Part shown: in pieces, positions 21,515 through 28,707 of the stretch
Layout of the letters: each line of letters starts with the position of its first letter
Numbering within the stretch: position 1 is the first letter of the stretch
From: Candidatus Accumulibacter aalborgensis
GTDB taxonomy: Bacteria > Pseudomonadota > Gammaproteobacteria > Burkholderiales > Rhodocyclaceae
DNA: 64,000 nucleotides
Reading direction: 5' to 3'
Assembly (NCBI RefSeq): GCF_900089955.1
Contig: NZ_FLQX01000106.1
Location: 1 to 64,000, forward strand
Program-made: the position numbers and the translations under genes
The notes under the pieces: generated by a model
Seen by the model: only the letters and a program-made list of their open reading frames with translations
Database searches by the model: none
What the model was told of the DNA's origin: nothing

Positions 21515-22225
21515 ATGATCCCCTGGCTCGATGACCGGAAAACTCCGTTTCCGCCACTGGAGCTGGCGCTCAACGAGCCCAATGGCCTGCTCTGTGCCGG
21601 CGGTGATCTGTCTCCCCAGCGCCTGCTCAACGCCTACCAGCATGGCATCTTTCCCTGGTACTCGAGGGGCGAGCCCATCCTGTGGTGGAGTCCCGACCCG
21701 CGCATGGTGCTCTTTCCTGGCGAGTTCCGCATCGCACGCTCCTTGCGCCGCTGCTTGCGCTCGGGGCGCTGCGAAGTGAAACTCGACAGCGACTTCCCTG
21801 CCGTAATCCGGGCCTGCGCCGAAACGCCGCGTGCTGGCCAGAACGACACATGGATCACGCGCGACATGCAGCGTGCCTACTGGCAGTTGTTCGAATCCGG
21901 CATTGCCCATTCGGTAGAGACGTGGTTTGATGGCCAACTCGTCGGTGGCCTGTATGGGCTGGCCATCGGCCGCATGTTCTATGGCGAGTCGATGTTCTCG
22001 CGCGTGACCGACGCCTCGAAGATCGCCGCAGCGCATCTCGCCCGTTTCCTTGAAGAGGAGGGATTCGGCATGATAGATTGCCAGATGAACACGCCGCACC
22101 TCGCTTCGCTGGGAGCGCGGGAGATCCCGCGCGCGGTCTTCATCGCCCGGCTGCGTGCGCTGGTCAGCGTCGCCTGGCAGCCTGGCAAATGGCCGACCGA
22201 CGGCGCCAGCCAGCCCTGGACTTAG
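21515..22225 (+). CDS. aat: Leucyl/phenylalanyl-tRNA-protein transferase
   Basis: Adds Leu or Phe to proteins with N-terminal Lys or Arg, marking them for the ClpS-ClpAP N-degron pathway. The 236-residue protein shows the signatures [60 protein letters not shown], the [19 protein letters not shown] stretch and [17 protein letters not shown]. All match the family. It is followed after four bases by bpt, the other bacterial N-degron transferase. Confidence 0.96.
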
Positions 22226-22229
22226 GCGA

Positions 22230-22988
22230 ATGGCACGACTCAACGACTCCGACCTGCCATTTTCGCTGCTGCAGTTCTACGCCACAGCTCCCTACACCTG
22301 CAGCTACCTGCCGGGTGAACGGGCACGTTCGCAGGTCGCCACTCCCAGCCACCTGATCAATACCGAGGTCTACGGCGAACTCGTTCGCAGTGGTTTTCGA
22401 CGCAGCGGGGTGTTTACCTATCGCCCACGCTGCGACGATTGCCGTGCCTGCATCCCGGTACGAATTCCCGCCAGGCTGTACCAGCCCAACCGCAGCCAGC
22501 GGCGCAGCATCAGGCTGCACGCCGGCCTGACGGCGCGCGAGTTGCCGCTCGCCTTCGCCGACGAGCATTATCAGCTCTATCTGCGTTACCAGTCGGCACG
22601 ACACGCCGGCGGCGGCATGGACCAGGACAGCCATGAACAATACACGCATTTCCTGCTGCAAAGCCGTGTGGACACCCGGCTGATCGAATTCACCGAGGAC
22701 GGTGTCCTGCGCATGGTCAGCATCCTCGACGTTCTCAACGACGGCCTGTCGTCGGTCTACACCTTCTACGATCCGGACCATCAGCCGGCGAGTTTCGGCA
22801 CCTACAACATTGCCTGGCAGATCGCCCAGTGCGTGGCCAATCGACTGCCCTATCTGTACCTGGGCTACTGGATTCGGGATAGCCGGAAGATGGCTTACAA
22901 GGCTAGCTTCAGGCCGCTCGAAGGACTGTTTGACGGACAGTGGATAGCCCTTGGCGCGGGTCTCGCGGCCGCCACCGCGCAGCGTTGA
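22230..22988 (+). CDS. bpt: Aspartate/glutamate leucyltransferase (arginyltransferase family)
   Basis: Bpt/ATE-family enzyme that leucylates proteins bearing N-terminal Asp or Glu, feeding ClpS-dependent degradation. The 252-residue protein has the N-terminal Cys cluster ([21 protein letters not shown]), [10 protein letters not shown], and [20 protein letters not shown] with [18 protein letters not shown] at the C-terminus. The start is the ATG giving [19 protein letters not shown], four bases after aat; upstream in-frame ATGs lie inside aat. The chaperone-like cluster begins 49 bp downstream on the same strand. Confidence 0.94.
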
Positions 22989-23037: not shown

Positions 23038-25545
23038 ATGTCGAGAAAGCACCGAACACCCCCTCCAGCCTCCCGGCAAACGCCCCCCAGCGCAGCGGTT
23101 TCGCCCGCGACGCGCGCCAGACAGGCCCTCGACGCGGGTCGCTATCGTGACGCGATCGAGTTCTTCAAGGACCTGCTCAAGAGCGAGCGGCGACCGGAAT
23201 GGGTCGATGCGCTGGCCCAGAGTTATGCCGGTCGGGCCGCCGAACTGGCGGGCAAGGGAATGTTTCCCGAGGCGCTGGTGGTGTGGCGTAATCGCTCCAG
23301 CCTGTGCGATAAGCCGCTGGTTGAAGGAGGCAGCCCCTACCTCGAGTGGCTGATGCGCGCCGGCGAGCACGACGCGGCGCTGCGCTTGCTGATCAGCGCC
23401 GACGCCGACCCGTCGACGGCGGCCGATCTCGAGACGCGTCTGGCCGCGGTGGCGCTGACCGCGCCCGATGGCACGCTGGCGCAGCTCGCTGATGATCGTC
23501 CGCTGCGTCGTCATCGTGCGGCGGCGCTGGCGTCGATCGCTGCTTGCTGCCGGGGTGATCGGGCCGATCTCGACGAGCAATTGCGCACCATTCCGTTTCG
23601 CTCCCCTTATCGCGATCTGCGCTTCATCCTCAAGGCGTTGCTGCTGGTCGGCGATGATCCTTCGCAGGCTGCCGACCTGATGGCCCGCATCGCTGTCGAC
23701 GGTCCTTTCGAGAAGCTCGCGGCCGTCGTTCGCGCGGCTCTCCTGCCCGGCAGCCGCTGGCTGGTGCCGATGCTCGCTCTTGACGAAGAGGGCCGGCAAC
23801 TGCTGCTCGACCTCAAGGGTTGTCCGGACAATCGGCGCGCGCTGATGTTCGAGGTTGCCGCGCTGGCCCGGCTCGGCACGCCGCCGACACCGGCCAAGGT
23901 CCTCGACCTCCTGCTGCGCCGTGGCCGCGTTTTGCCGACCAGCGCGGCCAGGCTCTGCCGACGCCTGTTGCCCTATGGCGCCAAACGCCTGGCGGAATAC
24001 CGCAGTGCTTTCGGTCAGTTGGCAGTAGCCGAGCGCGAGTGCATTCTGGCGCTGGCGATCGAACAGGATGGCGGGGGCTGGATCGAGGAGCACTGGTTGC
24101 GCGCCGTGGATCTGCTGTCGCCGCCCGACAAGGCGCCGCTGCACGCAGCGCTGATTCTCCGCCATCTGTACGAGGTCATCGTCGGCGACGCCGACGCCGA
24201 TGATTCCGAGTGCATCGACTGGCTGGAACGAAGCCTGCTGCTCGACCCCGATGATCGTGCGACGCACCTCAAGCTGATCAGAATCCACCGCCAGGCCAAG
24301 GATCTCCAGGCCGCGCGCGCGAGTCTCGATAGGGCGCTGGCGAGCTTTGCCAATGATCCGGCAGTGTTGCTCGAAGCGGTCGAAACGGCACTGGCCGGCA
24401 ACGCCTTCAAGAAAGCGGTGACCCTGGCCAAGCGCCTGCTCGAGATCGATCCGATCAATTCGAAAGTGCGCGCGCTGATTGGGCAGGCGCACCTGTCGCA
24501 CGCGCGCAAGCAGATCCGCGCGCAGCGGGCGGATGCGGCCGGCAGGGAACTCGACCTGGCCGAGGAATGGCTCAGTTCGCCGAACGATCGGAGCATCGCC
24601 ACGCTGCTGCGTGGGCTGAGCGCCAGCGATGCTCCGGCGACCGCGCTGTTGTTGGTAGCCGTGGCTGAACTAGGGGGCGGGCTGCTGGCCGCTTTCCATG
24701 TCTTGCTGGAATCCAGTCGTGTCGGTAGCCAGGGCGCGGGCGCCTTGCGTCGCGCTGGCATCGAACTGTCGCGGGCAGCGACCTCGCGGGAAGTCCTGGC
24801 CGTGGTGCAGGCGATCAATGCGCTGCGCGAGGCTGACGAGCGCAAGCTGCAGACTGTTCTCGACCCCCTGCGGGCGCCACTCAAGCGGGCGGCCGGCGCT
24901 GACTTCAGTGAGTCCGAACTGATCTCGATCTGCGAAACGCTGCTGCGCCGGGACGAAATCACCCTGTTGCAGGCCTATGCCGGTGCTGGCCTCAAGCGCT
25001 GGCCGGAGCGGCCGGTTTTCGTGTATTTGACGATCTTTGCCCGGCATGGCAAGTCGGCACGTTTCGCCATGTCCAGTCGAGAGATTGTGGCACTGGAAAA
25101 AGCCGCGGAGCAGGCGCAGGCCGATGGCGATCAACGTACCGTAGCGCGCATCCGCGAGCTCGTCCAGCCGTTGCCTGACTTCGCAGGCGGAGGGCCGGAC
25201 GACTTCGATGACCCGGATGTCTTCGGCGGTCCCGGCGAGGCACCGTTCGCCGATCTACACGCGCTGTTCGAGATGATGATCTCGCTGGACAACGACCAGG
25301 CGTTGATCACCATGGCTCGCGAACTCATGCCTGACGCTGAATTCTGTCCTCTGGAACGTGCGGCAGGTGGCAACCGGAAGAAGCTGGCGCGCTTGCTCAT
25401 CGATTATCTTGTCGAACTCGACGCGAAGGTTGGCGCGAGTCGTTCGCCGCGCGAAGCGCCGACGCCGGCGCCGCGCGCGCCCGAGCCGCTCAAAGGCAAG
25501 GTGCCAGTTCAGGACGACCGCCAGAAAGGGCTATTCGATGATTGA
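23038..25545 (+). CDS. Large helical-repeat (TPR-like) protein of a chaperone cluster
   Basis: Protein of 835 residues with a Pro-rich N-terminal tail (about 1-30) and then mostly alpha-helical repeats. TPR-like pairs are clearest around residues 385-500 (ECIDWLERSLLLDPDDRATH, AFKKAVTLAKRLLEIDPINS). The C-terminus is Arg/Pro/Ala-rich and charged. No catalytic motif was recognised. The ATG at 23038 is preferred over the TTG one codon earlier. Its last eight bases overlap the J-like gene, so expression with the Hsp70 cluster is very likely. A role as client- or partner-binding scaffold is inference from the fold and context only. Confidence 0.85.
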   Translation: MSRKHRTPPPASRQTPPSAAVSPATRARQALDAGRYRDAIEFFKDLLKSERRPEWVDALAQSYAGRAAELAGKGMFPEALVVWRNRSSLCDKPLVEGGSPYLEWLMRAGEHDAALRLLISADADPSTAADLETRLAAVALTAPDGTLAQLADDRPLRRHRAAALASIAACCRGDRADLDEQLRTIPFRSPYRDLRFILKALLLVGDDPSQAADLMARIAVDGPFEKLAAVVRAALLPGSRWLVPMLALDEEGRQLLLDLKGCPDNRRALMFEVAALARLGTPPTPAKVLDLLLRRGRVLPTSAARLCRRLLPYGAKRLAEYRSAFGQLAVAERECILALAIEQDGGGWIEEHWLRAVDLLSPPDKAPLHAALILRHLYEVIVGDADADDSECIDWLERSLLLDPDDRATHLKLIRIHRQAKDLQAARASLDRALASFANDPAVLLEAVETALAGNAFKKAVTLAKRLLEIDPINSKVRALIGQAHLSHARKQIRAQRADAAGRELDLAEEWLSSPNDRSIATLLRGLSASDAPATALLLVAVAELGGGLLAAFHVLLESSRVGSQGAGALRRAGIELSRAATSREVLAVVQAINALREADERKLQTVLDPLRAPLKRAAGADFSESELISICETLLRRDEITLLQAYAGAGLKRWPERPVFVYLTIFARHGKSARFAMSSREIVALEKAAEQAQADGDQRTVARIRELVQPLPDFAGGGPDDFDDPDVFGGPGEAPFADLHALFEMMISLDNDQALITMARELMPDAEFCPLERAAGGNRKKLARLLIDYLVELDAKVGASRSPREAPTPAPRAPEPLKGKVPVQDDRQKGLFDD

Positions 25546-25828
25546 CCCCTACCGCGTGCTTGGCGTCGACCTTTCGGCGGACGACGAGACGATTCGGGCC
25601 GCCTATCTGGCGGCGATTCGCGAATCGCCGCCAGAACGTGACCGCGAGCGGTTCGAGAGCGTGCGCGCCGCCTATGAGACCATCGCCGATCCTCGTCGGC
25701 GGATTGCGCACAGCCTGTTCGACCGTTCGCAGCCCACTATCGACGATCTGCTGGCTGCCGTGAGCAGCGATTTCGCGCCGCGTCACCCGACCGATCGGCG
25801 CCTGCTGCGCATTCTGGGGGCAAAATGA
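25538..25828 (+). CDS. Small J-domain-like protein lacking the HPD motif
   Basis: A 96-residue protein. Residues 3-57 align with a DnaJ J-domain: DPYRVLGVDLSADDETIRAA for helices I-II and RFESVRAAYETIADPRRR for helix III. At the loop that contacts Hsp70, the invariant His-Pro-Asp is Pro31-Pro32-Glu33 (RESPPERD). No Gly/Phe, zinc-finger or C-terminal substrate domain follows. Canonical J-proteins need HPD to stimulate Hsp70 ATPase, so this may bind without stimulating, or work with a co-adapted Hsp70. It overlaps both neighbours, by eight and four bases. Confidence 0.85.
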   Translation: MIDPYRVLGVDLSADDETIRAAYLAAIRESPPERDRERFESVRAAYETIADPRRRIAHSLFDRSQPTIDDLLAAVSSDFAPRHPTDRRLLRILGAK

Positions 25829-26541
25829 TCGACCCCCTGATGACCCTCGATTCGGCCGAGAGAGAATGTCTGGTGGACGAGTTCCGTGCCTGTCTCGAGC
25901 GCGCTGCAGCGCCCCGTGAAACCTGGCCGGAAGCGCACGACGAGGCGCCAGCTGCCGAGCCGCCGGCGGTCGACCTGGCCACCCTGCTCAGCGAGATGGC
26001 TGTGCTGAAGAGCGAGCTGCGACTGCAATCGCGCCAGTTCAAGAATACGCTCGAAGAATTGCGCCTTTTTGGCAACGATCTCCGCCAGCACGGCGAGCGC
26101 CTGCAGCGCGATGTCGATCGTGCTCGCGAGCAGGCGGCAGCGATCCAGGGACAGACCGAGAAGAAGTTTCTGCTCGCCATTCTCGACCTGCGCGACCGGC
26201 TGCAAAGCGGCGTCGACGCCGCCGGGAGGCCTCCTGCATCGCTGCTCACGCGCCTGGTTCCCGGCCCGACGCGTTTTGCCGCCAGCCTGGCAGAGGGGCT
26301 GCGGCTGACCCTGCAGCGCCTCGACGACCTGCTCTCCAGCCATGGCGTGCGACCGCTGCAGGTGGTCGGCGAGATCCTCGATCCGCAACGGATGCGTGCC
26401 GTCGGCGTCGAAGCCGGTAGCGATTCGGCAGCCATCGCTGATGGCACCGTCCTGCGCGAGGTGCAGCGCGGGTTTTTCCACGACGGTGATCTCTTGCGCG
26501 TCGCGCAGGTCATTGTCAGCAAGAAGGCAAACAGAAAATGA
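25825..26541 (+). CDS. GrpE-like nucleotide exchange factor
   Basis: Protein of 238 residues with a long predicted coiled coil (about 50-115; LLSEMAVLKSELRLQSRQFK) followed by a GrpE-type beta domain. The latter shows GVRPLQVVGEILDPQRMRAV and VLREVQRGFFHDGDLLRVAQ, matching the conserved end of GrpE (V-x-x-G-F). GrpE releases ADP from Hsp70 partners. It overlaps both the J-like and Hsp70 genes by ATGA junctions, as expected for subunits of one system. It is divergent from housekeeping GrpE, so pairing with the adjacent Hsp70 is inferred. Confidence 0.87.
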   Translation: MIDPLMTLDSAERECLVDEFRACLERAAAPRETWPEAHDEAPAAEPPAVDLATLLSEMAVLKSELRLQSRQFKNTLEELRLFGNDLRQHGERLQRDVDRAREQAAAIQGQTEKKFLLAILDLRDRLQSGVDAAGRPPASLLTRLVPGPTRFAASLAEGLRLTLQRLDDLLSSHGVRPLQVVGEILDPQRMRAVGVEAGSDSAAIADGTVLREVQRGFFHDGDLLRVAQVIVSKKANRK

Positions 26542-28334
26542 CAGAAATCATTGTCGGTATCGATCTCGGTACGACGAACTCCGAAGTGGCCATCGTTCGC
26601 GAAGGGCGAGTCGAGGTCATCCCCGTTGCACCGGGAACGGGAACAGGAGCAGGAGCGCGCATTCTTCCCTCGGTCGTCAGCGTCGCCGATGATGGCAGCC
26701 TGCTGGTCGGCGACGCAGCGCGCAACCAGTATGCCTTGCATCCCGAGCGCAGCGTGCGCTCGATCAAGCGTCGCATGGGCGAGTACACCGCGGTGCAGAT
26801 GGCCGGCAAGGATTACAGCCCGCAGGAGATCTCGGCGATGATCCTGCGCCGCCTGCGCGACATTGCCGAAGCGCATATCGGCGCAACGGTGAACAAGGCG
26901 GTGATCACGGTGCCCGCCTATTTTTCCGACGCGCAGCGCCAGGCGACGCGCGAGGCGGGTGAGATCGCCGGCCTGGAAGTGGTGCGCATCATCAACGAGC
27001 CGACGGCTGCAGCGCTGGCTTACGAAAGCTGCCACAGCGGCGCGCGCAAGGCGCTGGTCTATGACCTCGGTGGCGGCACCTTTGACGTTTCCGTGGTTAA
27101 TCTCGAAAGCGATGTCGTCGAGGTGCTCGCCAGCCACGGCAACAATCACCTCGGCGGTGACGATTTCGACCAGAAATTGGTGACCTTCGCGGTCGATCAC
27201 CTGAAGGAGAAGCACGACATCGACGTTCGGCAGCAGCCGCTGGCCATGGCGCGCCTGCAGCACGCCGCCGAAGCGGCAAAGATCACGCTTTCCGACCAAC
27301 CTTACGCGATGCTGTCCGAAGAGTACCTGTGCGAAAAGGACGACGTTCCGGTGCACCTGTCGCTCGAGATCTCGCGCCTGGCGTACGAGGAGATGATCGA
27401 GCCCTACATCGCCGAGACGATAGAAGCCGTCCATGTCGCCTTGAGCGGCGCCGGGCTGACGGTGGCCGACATCAACGAAATCCTGCTCGTCGGCGGAGCG
27501 ACGCGGACGCCTCTCGTGCAGCGCCGACTCGAAGAGGACCTCGGTATTCAGCCGCGCGCCGAAGTCGACCCGGACCTCTGCGTGGCCATGGGCGCCGCTA
27601 TTCAGGCGGCCGTGATCGCCGGCGATCAGGCGCCGACCGTGCTCGTCGATGTCACGCCTTACACTTTCGGCACCAGCGTTCTGGAATACTTCAATGGCGA
27701 AATGTACCCCTATTGCTACGTGCCGCTGATCCGCAAGAACACGCCGATTCCCGTCTCCAAGAGCGATGGCTTCTGCACGATCTTCGATGGCCAGACCAAG
27801 GTCGACATCAATGTTTACCAGGGCGAAGACCCGGATGCATTGAACAACATCGAAATTGGCCGCTTCACCATCGAGGGTCTGCGCGAAGATGCGCCGGCGG
27901 GTAACGCCTTGATCACCACCTTCTCTCTGGATGTCAACGGCATTCTCCAGGTGACTTCGCGCGAGAAGGAAACCGGGCTGGTGCACTCGATCACCATCGA
28001 CAACGCCATCAGCCGCTTTACCGGCGACAAGCTGGCCGAAGCGCGCGAGCGCATCGACGGGTTGTTCGGCGACCAGGACGGCGAAGTGGGGCGGCCAGGC
28101 GCGGAGGTCACCAGTTCCGGTGGTGAGACCGTCGAAGGTGGCCGGCGCCTGCGCGTCGAGGCCGCGGCACTGACCGAGAAGGCCGAGCGCCTGCTGGCCA
28201 GTTCAGGGACTGAAGACGCTGAAGATCTGGTCAATGGCATCGAGGCCGTCAAGGACCGCCTGGCAGGATCGGACGCCGAACTGAAAACGGCGATCGATGC
28301 GCTGGCCGACCTCCTGTACTACCTGGATGCCTGA
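26538..28334 (+). CDS. Hsp70-family chaperone (non-canonical DnaK paralogue)
   Basis: A 598-residue Hsp70 with a complete ATPase domain: GIDLGTTNSEVAIV (phosphate 1), VPAYFSDAQRQATREAGEIA, RIINEPTAAALAYE, VYDLGGGTFDVSVV (phosphate 2) and LLVGGATRTPLVQ (adenosine). The substrate-binding domain follows (KSDGFCTIFDGQTKVDINVY, GILQVTSREKETG). The helical lid is short and ends in DLLYYLDA, without the acidic EEVD-like tail of some Hsp70s. It is about 40 residues shorter than DnaK. Its own GrpE-like and J-like genes overlap upstream and a zinc-ribbon gene overlaps downstream, so it is probably a specialised chaperone. Confidence 0.93.
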   Translation: MTEIIVGIDLGTTNSEVAIVREGRVEVIPVAPGTGTGAGARILPSVVSVADDGSLLVGDAARNQYALHPERSVRSIKRRMGEYTAVQMAGKDYSPQEISAMILRRLRDIAEAHIGATVNKAVITVPAYFSDAQRQATREAGEIAGLEVVRIINEPTAAALAYESCHSGARKALVYDLGGGTFDVSVVNLESDVVEVLASHGNNHLGGDDFDQKLVTFAVDHLKEKHDIDVRQQPLAMARLQHAAEAAKITLSDQPYAMLSEEYLCEKDDVPVHLSLEISRLAYEEMIEPYIAETIEAVHVALSGAGLTVADINEILLVGGATRTPLVQRRLEEDLGIQPRAEVDPDLCVAMGAAIQAAVIAGDQAPTVLVDVTPYTFGTSVLEYFNGEMYPYCYVPLIRKNTPIPVSKSDGFCTIFDGQTKVDINVYQGEDPDALNNIEIGRFTIEGLREDAPAGNALITTFSLDVNGILQVTSREKETGLVHSITIDNAISRFTGDKLAEARERIDGLFGDQDGEVGRPGAEVTSSGGETVEGGRRLRVEAAALTEKAERLLASSGTEDAEDLVNGIEAVKDRLAGSDAELKTAIDALADLLYYLDA

Positions 28335-28707
28335 AGTCCTGGATCGCTGCCCGGCGTGTCGCGCACGTCTGCCGGAGAACGCGGTCTGTCCGCGCTGTGG
28401 CTGCGACTTCTCGCTTGCACAGCAGGCGATCGAGCAAGCCAGGCGCCTGCTCGAACAAGCGCTTCGCTCGCTGGCCCTGGGTGACCGAGCGGCGGCCCGT
28501 AGCCAGGTCGACGCCTCGCTGGCGATGCACAGGCGGCGACTCGGGCAGGCCATCAAGGGCTTCCTGGACGACGAGAAAAGCGCCGCGAAAAGCGAGCGGG
28601 CAGCGCCTGGCGGCTGGTCAGCGGAGCCGGGCGACGATGAAGCCCTGCCGGGCGTCGTCTGGCCAGGCGAATGGCAGAACCTCGATTCGACTGTCGGGCA
28701 GGACTAA
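28327..28707 (+). CDS. Zinc-ribbon protein, last gene of the Hsp70 cluster
   Basis: A 126-residue protein. The N-terminus carries two CxxC knuckles (CPAC near residue 8, CPRCGC near 21), a likely structural zinc ribbon. Next comes a basic helical segment (about 35-80) and a disordered C-terminus with acidic and Trp/Gly-rich stretches. The start ATG overlaps the last eight bases of the Hsp70 gene. I do not recognise the family beyond the ribbon. Position suggests it serves the same complex, perhaps as an adaptor. Confidence 0.8.
   Translation: MPEVLDRCPACRARLPENAVCPRCGCDFSLAQQAIEQARRLLEQALRSLALGDRAAARSQVDASLAMHRRRLGQAIKGFLDDEKSAAKSERAAPGGWSAEPGDDEALPGVVWPGEWQNLDSTVGQD

Follow-up and report, generated by a model that had tools for sequence, protein, structure and literature searches.

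The closest known relative of the Hsp70 reported here is HscC of Escherichia coli, whose J-protein partners DjlB and DjlC read HPE in place of the His-Pro-Asp (HPD) motif. HscC confers ultraviolet (UV) resistance by an unknown mechanism, and its phenotype also includes cadmium (Cd) resistance. Its J partners are tail-anchored in the membrane and, like E. coli HscA, it is without the 290–295 loop that is tied to GrpE (PMC8215388, cited in part). HPE is apparently the only HPD replacement tolerated, according to the cited sections of a 2026 review that also refers to a designed J-domain analogue working without HPD (PMC13254874). Here we describe a five-gene module in a 64,000-nucleotide stretch of Candidatus Accumulibacter aalborgensis (contig NZ_FLQX01000106.1, positions 1 to 64,000; hereafter the window), encoding a tetratricopeptide repeat (TPR) scaffold protein, a J-like protein, a GrpE-like protein, an Hsp70 related to HscC and a zinc-ribbon protein. 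In a literature search, the titles and abstract openings among the papers listed gave no description of this module (the phylogenetic analysis of Barriot et al. 2020 may list its J or Hsp70 family), nor did the search return anything on an Hsp70 with the sliding clamp and a clamp-binding motif, or on Accumulibacter with DnaK and GrpE.

A five-gene Hsp70 module inherited as a unit

The module genes all lie on the plus strand and encode a TPR/helical-repeat scaffold protein (P0001, 835 amino acids, 23038–25545; Pfam TPR_19, 6.8e-8), a J-like protein (P0002, 96 amino acids, 25538–25828; DnaJ, 1.2e-8), a GrpE-like nucleotide exchange factor (P0003, 238 amino acids, 25825–26541; GrpE, 2.1e-19), an Hsp70 (P0004, 598 amino acids, 26538–28334; HSP70, 1.1e-143) and a zinc-ribbon protein (P0005, 126 amino acids, 28327–28707). 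A first-pass annotation of this DNA had reported that each gene overlaps the next by 4 or 8 bases, and this is exact: TPR/J 8, J/GrpE 4, GrpE/Hsp70 4 and Hsp70/zinc ribbon 8 bases. Its statement that the set holds all three parts of an Hsp70 machine stands as far as the DnaJ, GrpE and HSP70 domain matches go; the J-like protein is without HPD, and J here denotes a fold whose activity is unproven. A promoter scan of the module found none, and terminators were at chance level only.

Our family sample comprised 150 relatives, the window's own genome counted among them. Eleven of these match the TPR protein at <1e-100 (our own genome, nine congeners and G067 from a different genus), and the same eleven match the module-type GrpE at <1e-50. 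All ten module-bearing genomes other than our own keep the five genes in the same order, with the TPR gene running off its contig in G020 and split in two in G025. The TPR/J overlap is 8 bases in 10 of 10, the GrpE/Hsp70 overlap 4 bases in 9 of 10 and the Hsp70/zinc-ribbon overlap 8 bases in 9 of 10; J and GrpE genes overlap by 4 bases in six, the other four having gaps of 8–119 bases, given the chosen start codons. Distribution within the genus is patchy (9 of the 27 other genomes), and two further Accumulibacter genomes hold remnants (loci L070 and L071), namely two TPR fragments near a contig end in G007 and pieces of the TPR, Hsp70 and zinc-ribbon genes in G017.

Across the class, a TPR profile gave 10 strong matches among 368 other genomes; at E ≤1e-3 the count is 26 of 369 (our own included), those beyond the strong ones reflecting weak TPR similarity. 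A J-like profile run across the phylum (299 genomes) led to a second class, where 33 of 48 genomes match a wider TPR profile at E ≤1e-3, some of them weakly. We opened the top-matching 29 far loci, 10 found by TPR and 19 by J-like. All five genes are present in 21 of them, in the same order and strand (TPR cut by a contig end in L156 and L158). L144 and L146 hold the first four genes and then reach the contig end, L167 holds the last four near a contig end, L150 is without GrpE and has a shortened TPR gene, L145 has TPR alone, and L162, L168 and L169 have TPR and J-like genes only. The genome of L145, the draft assembly G264, keeps all five genes dispersed over three contigs (L145, L246 and L244), with J and GrpE on C119 near a contig end and Hsp70 and zinc ribbon on C244; other genes flank both sides on C33 and C244.

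The recurrence of order and overlaps in 10 family genomes, and of order and strand in 21 of 29 far loci, makes the arrangement more than chance. Pairwise distances of the five proteins correlate (r 0.71–0.94, 24 loci), and partial correlations given canonical DnaK are 0.59–0.87 (11 loci with canonical DnaK at hand). The co-occurrence and co-divergence that the first-pass annotation had suggested looking for in other genomes are thus both seen, and inheritance of the module as a unit across distant bacteria is solid.

The scaffold tail often resembles clamp-binding motifs

P0001 is all-helical in its AlphaFold2 model, which is poor overall (mean predicted local distance difference test score, pLDDT, 64.3; predicted template-modelling score 0.34). 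The 50 PDB matches listed for it are generic helical-repeat proteins, with template-modelling scores by query length of ≤0.24. Residues 800–835 are left disordered (pLDDT <50), and within this tail, at the carboxy terminus, lies the clamp-binding-motif-like segment QKGLF (residues 829–833, 25522–25536), picked out by family alignment, pLDDT and enrichment. A variable proline-rich linker leads up to Q829, L832, F833, D834 and D835, which show no variation across 10 of 10 family TPR proteins aligned; the split copy L069 has the same tail ending. In homologues whose linkers are unrelated, the endings are QLDLF, QFELF, QDELF, QLILDF, QLTLDF, QLEIEF, QLEMDL and similar sequences, and both five-residue (QKGLF, QLDLF, QFELF) and six-residue (QLILDF, QLEMDL) forms are present, as in known clamp binders. 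The cited parts of the literature give the clamp motif as QL[SD]LF, in which positions 1, 4 and 5 matter most, and also as QxxLF (PMC3919608), or as Q-aliphatic-x-[LM]-x?-[FL], with RecB QVEMEF binding the clamp at a dissociation constant of 2 micromolar (PMC13254535).

A lax pattern, Qxx[LIMF]x?[LF] in the last 12 residues, occurs in 36 of 49 distinct tails (36/48 if the N-terminal half of the split L069 gene is left out) versus 3 of 309 control open reading frames (ORFs), the controls being other ORFs of at least 150 amino acids from the same loci, some perhaps not real genes. Published patterns (Q[LIVA]x[LM]x?[FL] or QxxLF) match 30/48 tails versus 3/309 control C-termini. At 50% identity the sequences fall into 22 clusters, and 14 of these carry a tail motif; with one representative per cluster the figure is 13/22, versus 1.06 expected from shuffled tails, and 0 of 20000 shuffles reached as high. 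By group, the motif is found in 11/11 family tails (all QxxLF), in 12/13 type-2 pairs (TPR genes with a J-like or J-remnant partner), in 12/20 (lax) or 6/20 (published) of the five-gene loci outside the Accumulibacter family and in 1/4 tails from incomplete or split loci. Motif-less lineages have RG-rich tails (L084, L086, L088) or endings of no recognised kind. To judge from these alignments, a clamp-type motif appears to be the closest known match of the scaffold tail, and the tail is the only apparent pointer to a target that we found for the module.

Type-2 loci (L162, L168, L169 and L183–L194) have a TPR gene with a J-like or J-remnant gene, and neither Hsp70 nor GrpE in the stretch seen, which spanned 13–14 kb for three loci and about 1.5 kb for the others. 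There are two or more scaffold forms; some second-class genomes have only the TPR gene with its J-like or J-remnant partner, and G544 carries both the five-gene module and type 2. None of the four type-2-only genomes asked (G551, G577, G608 and G612) has a module-type GrpE, their best GrpE matches being canonical-level (1e-14 to 1e-17) or absent, versus 1e-72 and 1e-77 in G264 and G544. In the eight type-2 loci from genus g444 the partner matches the C-terminal part of the J-like family only, the J core being lost (in five of the eight it is an ORF of 65–73 residues), and the conserved part of this partner is not an Hsp70 trigger. mutM (Fpg DNA glycosylase) stands near the type-2 TPR gene in five genomes (L162, L168/L186, L169/L184, L189 and L192), divergent from it in the loci viewed; it was not in the other eight type-2 loci, with flanks of about 1.5 kb, and is a hint only.

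The reading we favour, at a little under an even chance, is that the five genes form one dedicated Hsp70 machine whose TPR scaffold is tethered to the sliding clamp in motif-bearing lineages. The TPR protein would be the scaffold anchoring the machine, its disordered tail docking on the hydrophobic pocket of DnaN in Accumulibacter and other motif-bearing lineages. The J-like protein would sit on the scaffold and bring in the co-encoded Hsp70, either merely positioning it or triggering it by an adapted contact; the GrpE-like protein would act as nucleotide exchange factor for this Hsp70, whose GrpE loop is retained, and the zinc-ribbon protein may be a small accessory or substrate adaptor. The assembled machine could then take apart or remodel replication and repair complexes bound to the clamp, remodelling being a plausible job for it. 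We infer the physical complex, clamp binding, remodelling activity and small-subunit roles from genomic and sequence facts, and service to a single client or complex is likewise our interpretation. Tentatively, and with less confidence, we go on to suggest that an Hsp70 with J-like recruiter, exchange factor and zinc adaptor is clipped to the clamp by the TPR scaffold to remodel complexes in place, and that the type-2 TPR and J-like pair serves as a clamp adaptor that either has had the chaperone mounted on it or has lost it. If the tail binds the clamp, a chaperone would be built into the replication tool-belt and the riddle of HscC and UV would gain a testable lead; if tethered, a dedicated chaperone would be placed at DNA replication or repair sites.

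Several points weigh against clamp tethering. Even the lax motif is missing from 12 of 48 tails and, outside the Accumulibacter family, from 8 of 20 five-gene loci (14 of 20 by the published patterns), so the clamp cannot be a universal anchor. The lax pattern was written after the tails were seen, and the Fisher value for tail enrichment is not a probability, as the tails are related to each other. With Lys as its second residue, our own QKGLF falls outside the newer consensus and qualifies only through QxxLF. A control phosphatase also ends in QLGLF, and single motif matches therefore mean little. The overlapping J start codon in part dictates the final Asp codons, but not those for Q, L and F. 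No DNA-related gene is common to the flanks of the five-gene loci, flanks that were not annotated gene by gene. The J-like protein, for its part, might still trigger the Hsp70, since HscC-linked J proteins are without the His in three of four loci.

The motif-less five-gene loci and the want of a shared DNA-related neighbour would sit well with a dedicated Hsp70 machine that serves a different single client or complex, its tail binding another partner, such as its own Hsp70 substrate groove, with the clamp likeness a convergence. Hydrophobic peptides are generic Hsp70 substrates, which also counts in favour of this alternative. Type-2 pairs, however, keep the motif in 12 of 13 cases with no adjacent Hsp70 in the stretch seen, which argues against the own-Hsp70 version, and an invariant Gln would presumably be unneeded in an Hsp70 substrate. 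We consider another client possible and the strongest of the alternatives, if on balance improbable.

Small subunits of the module

HPD is found in none of 39 aligned J-like sequences. P0002 reads SPPERD, with PPE in place of HPD (residues 31–33, 25628–25636). Across the 39, the position in register with the His is filled by P (32), S (6) or A (1); the next is P in 35 sequences and the third is acidic in 36. Six rows carry a His just one position before this triplet's first residue, and the alignment of two type-2 rows is poor. J proteins beside HscC read HPE in L239 and NPE, RPD and KPE in L240–L242. Non-HPD J proteins are thus common around this Hsp70 branch, and the J contact may be adapted rather than dead.

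The GrpE domain of P0003 scores 70.2 bits, versus a cut-off of 25.8. P0005 comprises a ribbon, two helices and a variable tail, as judged by alignment and model. It has no Pfam match over the cut-off (best DZR_2, E 0.043), and its model has no PDB match at E ≤0.001. The four cysteines of the ribbon (C8, C11, C21 and C24; 28348–28398) are invariant in 21 of 21 aligned rows.

An Hsp70 clade sister to HscC

The window's genome also carries canonical grpE, dnaK and dnaJ on contig C151 and HscA on C1, and canonical DnaK is present in 12 of 12 genomes asked (the 11 module bearers and G015, which is without the module). The first-pass annotation was right to set the module apart from the usual grpE-dnaK-dnaJ locus: its Hsp70 is additional and phylogenetically distinct, and not, as that annotation had considered, the organism's only DnaK. 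A further Hsp70-like protein of 505 amino acids, on a very long branch, is encoded elsewhere in this genome (L074:7462–8979).

The module Hsp70s group together in a single clade (100/100) that pairs with HscC (100/99), apart from DnaK and HscA; the HscC clade is also 100/100, the module Hsp70s being sister to it and not nested within. The tree is midpoint-rooted, with only five HscC sequences and a program warning of long branches. It is a rebuild of a first tree in which HscC was a single sequence on a long branch, now with four additional HscC rows and two further new ones, and minus four rows that were long or odd. P0004 also falls below the NCBIfam DnaK cut-offs (528.5 versus 648 bits; 521.1 versus 822.55 bits).

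Equivalents of DnaK D8, K70, D148, R167, E171, T173, T199, D201, E217 and D393 are found in 30 of 30 module Hsp70s and that of N170 in 28 of 30; on this alignment the catalytic and allosteric ATPase residues and the J-contact residues are intact. The DnaK 76–101 region is lost from both the module Hsp70s and E. coli HscC (2 of 26 positions filled, in 30/30 of the former), and in the first substrate-domain loop the eight module rows printed have an insertion, as does HscC. The 208–214 loop is shortened in module Hsp70s, HscC and HscA alike. At the 290–295 GrpE loop, 6 of 6 positions are filled in 30/30 module Hsp70s, versus 1 of 6 in E. coli HscC.

The joint branch, the shared deletion and insertion, and the departure from HPD among HscC-locus J proteins would all fit a module that is simply an HscC system, that is, HscC and a J partner that work at the membrane under metal or UV stress. 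We think this unlikely. The two clades are separate, the GrpE loop that E. coli HscC lacks (PMC8215388, cited in part) is kept throughout the module Hsp70s, and the HscC loci opened (L239–L242, 4/4, and that of E. coli) have hscC with longer J proteins and, in the stretches seen, no GrpE, TPR scaffold or zinc ribbon. Less probable still is a second, redundant dnaK operon that arose by duplication and serves as a general heat-shock spare for no client in particular: the patchy presence in the genus and the two remnants do make the module dispensable, but its gene order is different, its clade deep and its own, two subunits are non-chaperone, HPD is missing and co-inheritance is long-term.

Neighbouring genes and rejected candidates

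Upstream of the module, aat and bpt occupy 21515–22988 of the window and end 49 bases before it; we take these to be N-degron aminoacyl transferases. A link to the module was dropped: the pair adjoins it only in the window, L064, L065, L066 and the remnant L070, and was not found, within the stretches seen, in L060–L063, L067–L069 (L067 stops at the contig edge) or L141–L169.

A client encoded next door was also rejected, as clustering 236 flanking ORFs of 33 loci gave nothing common to most loci. Besides one single-linkage cluster reaching 10 loci (signalling proteins by eye), the clustering brought out ORFs antisense to the module, PilT-like genes (4 loci) and mutM (3 loci). As for a defence system, PADLOC gave one weak match to the Hsp70 (PDC-M61B, 2.1e-4) and none for the other four proteins. 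P0001 had no match at 1e-10 in 72,556 plasmid records, which argues against a plasmid-borne module, and one pattern scanned in viral contigs for a phage-borne form matched six stretches, none of them a relative.

Comparison with known systems

The nearest comparison is with HscC and DjlB/DjlC of E. coli. Both systems have an Hsp70 from sister clades with the same lobe-I deletion and loop insertion, and both have private J partners without a strict HPD. The E. coli system differs in the missing GrpE loop of its Hsp70, in a locus without GrpE, TPR scaffold or zinc ribbon, and in the length of its J partners (475 and 483 amino acids, against 96 for the module J-like protein). With the canonical grpE-dnaK-dnaJ set the module shares all three functional classes and the conserved ATPase residues, linker Asp and J-contact Arg, P0004 being 41.7% identical to E. 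coli DnaK over 513 residues; unlike that set, it has the order TPR, J, GrpE, Hsp70, zinc ribbon, no HPD, and a separate locus and clade.

A third comparison is the MXAN_6672–MxDnaK2 pair of Myxococcus, which we take to be grpS–sglK. It too joins a second GrpE and Hsp70 in one operon with a special function, but it is bicistronic and, in the cited part of its description, on which alone we compare it, has no adjoining J protein (PMC11019930). Type IV pseudo-J-domain proteins such as Pam16 likewise have a J fold with HPD replaced (PMC13254874, cited in part), yet Pam16 pairs with a working J protein, Pam18, whereas the module operon is without such a partner. The module is in this respect a natural test of whether an HPD-less J domain recruits Hsp70 without triggering it, HPD-less recruitment being named as a future question in the cited sections of the 2026 review (PMC13254874).

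The β-clamp binders Pol II, UmuC, RecB and Hda resemble the scaffold tail in a short motif of QxxLF or QLxLx[FL] type (PMC3716654, PMC13254535 and PMC3919608, each cited in part), the RecB QVEMEF being close to the QLEMDF of homologues. Here the likeness is one of sequence motif alone, and none of the named binders is a chaperone. The module looks like a fourth, self-contained kind, built around an Hsp70 that is sister to HscC.

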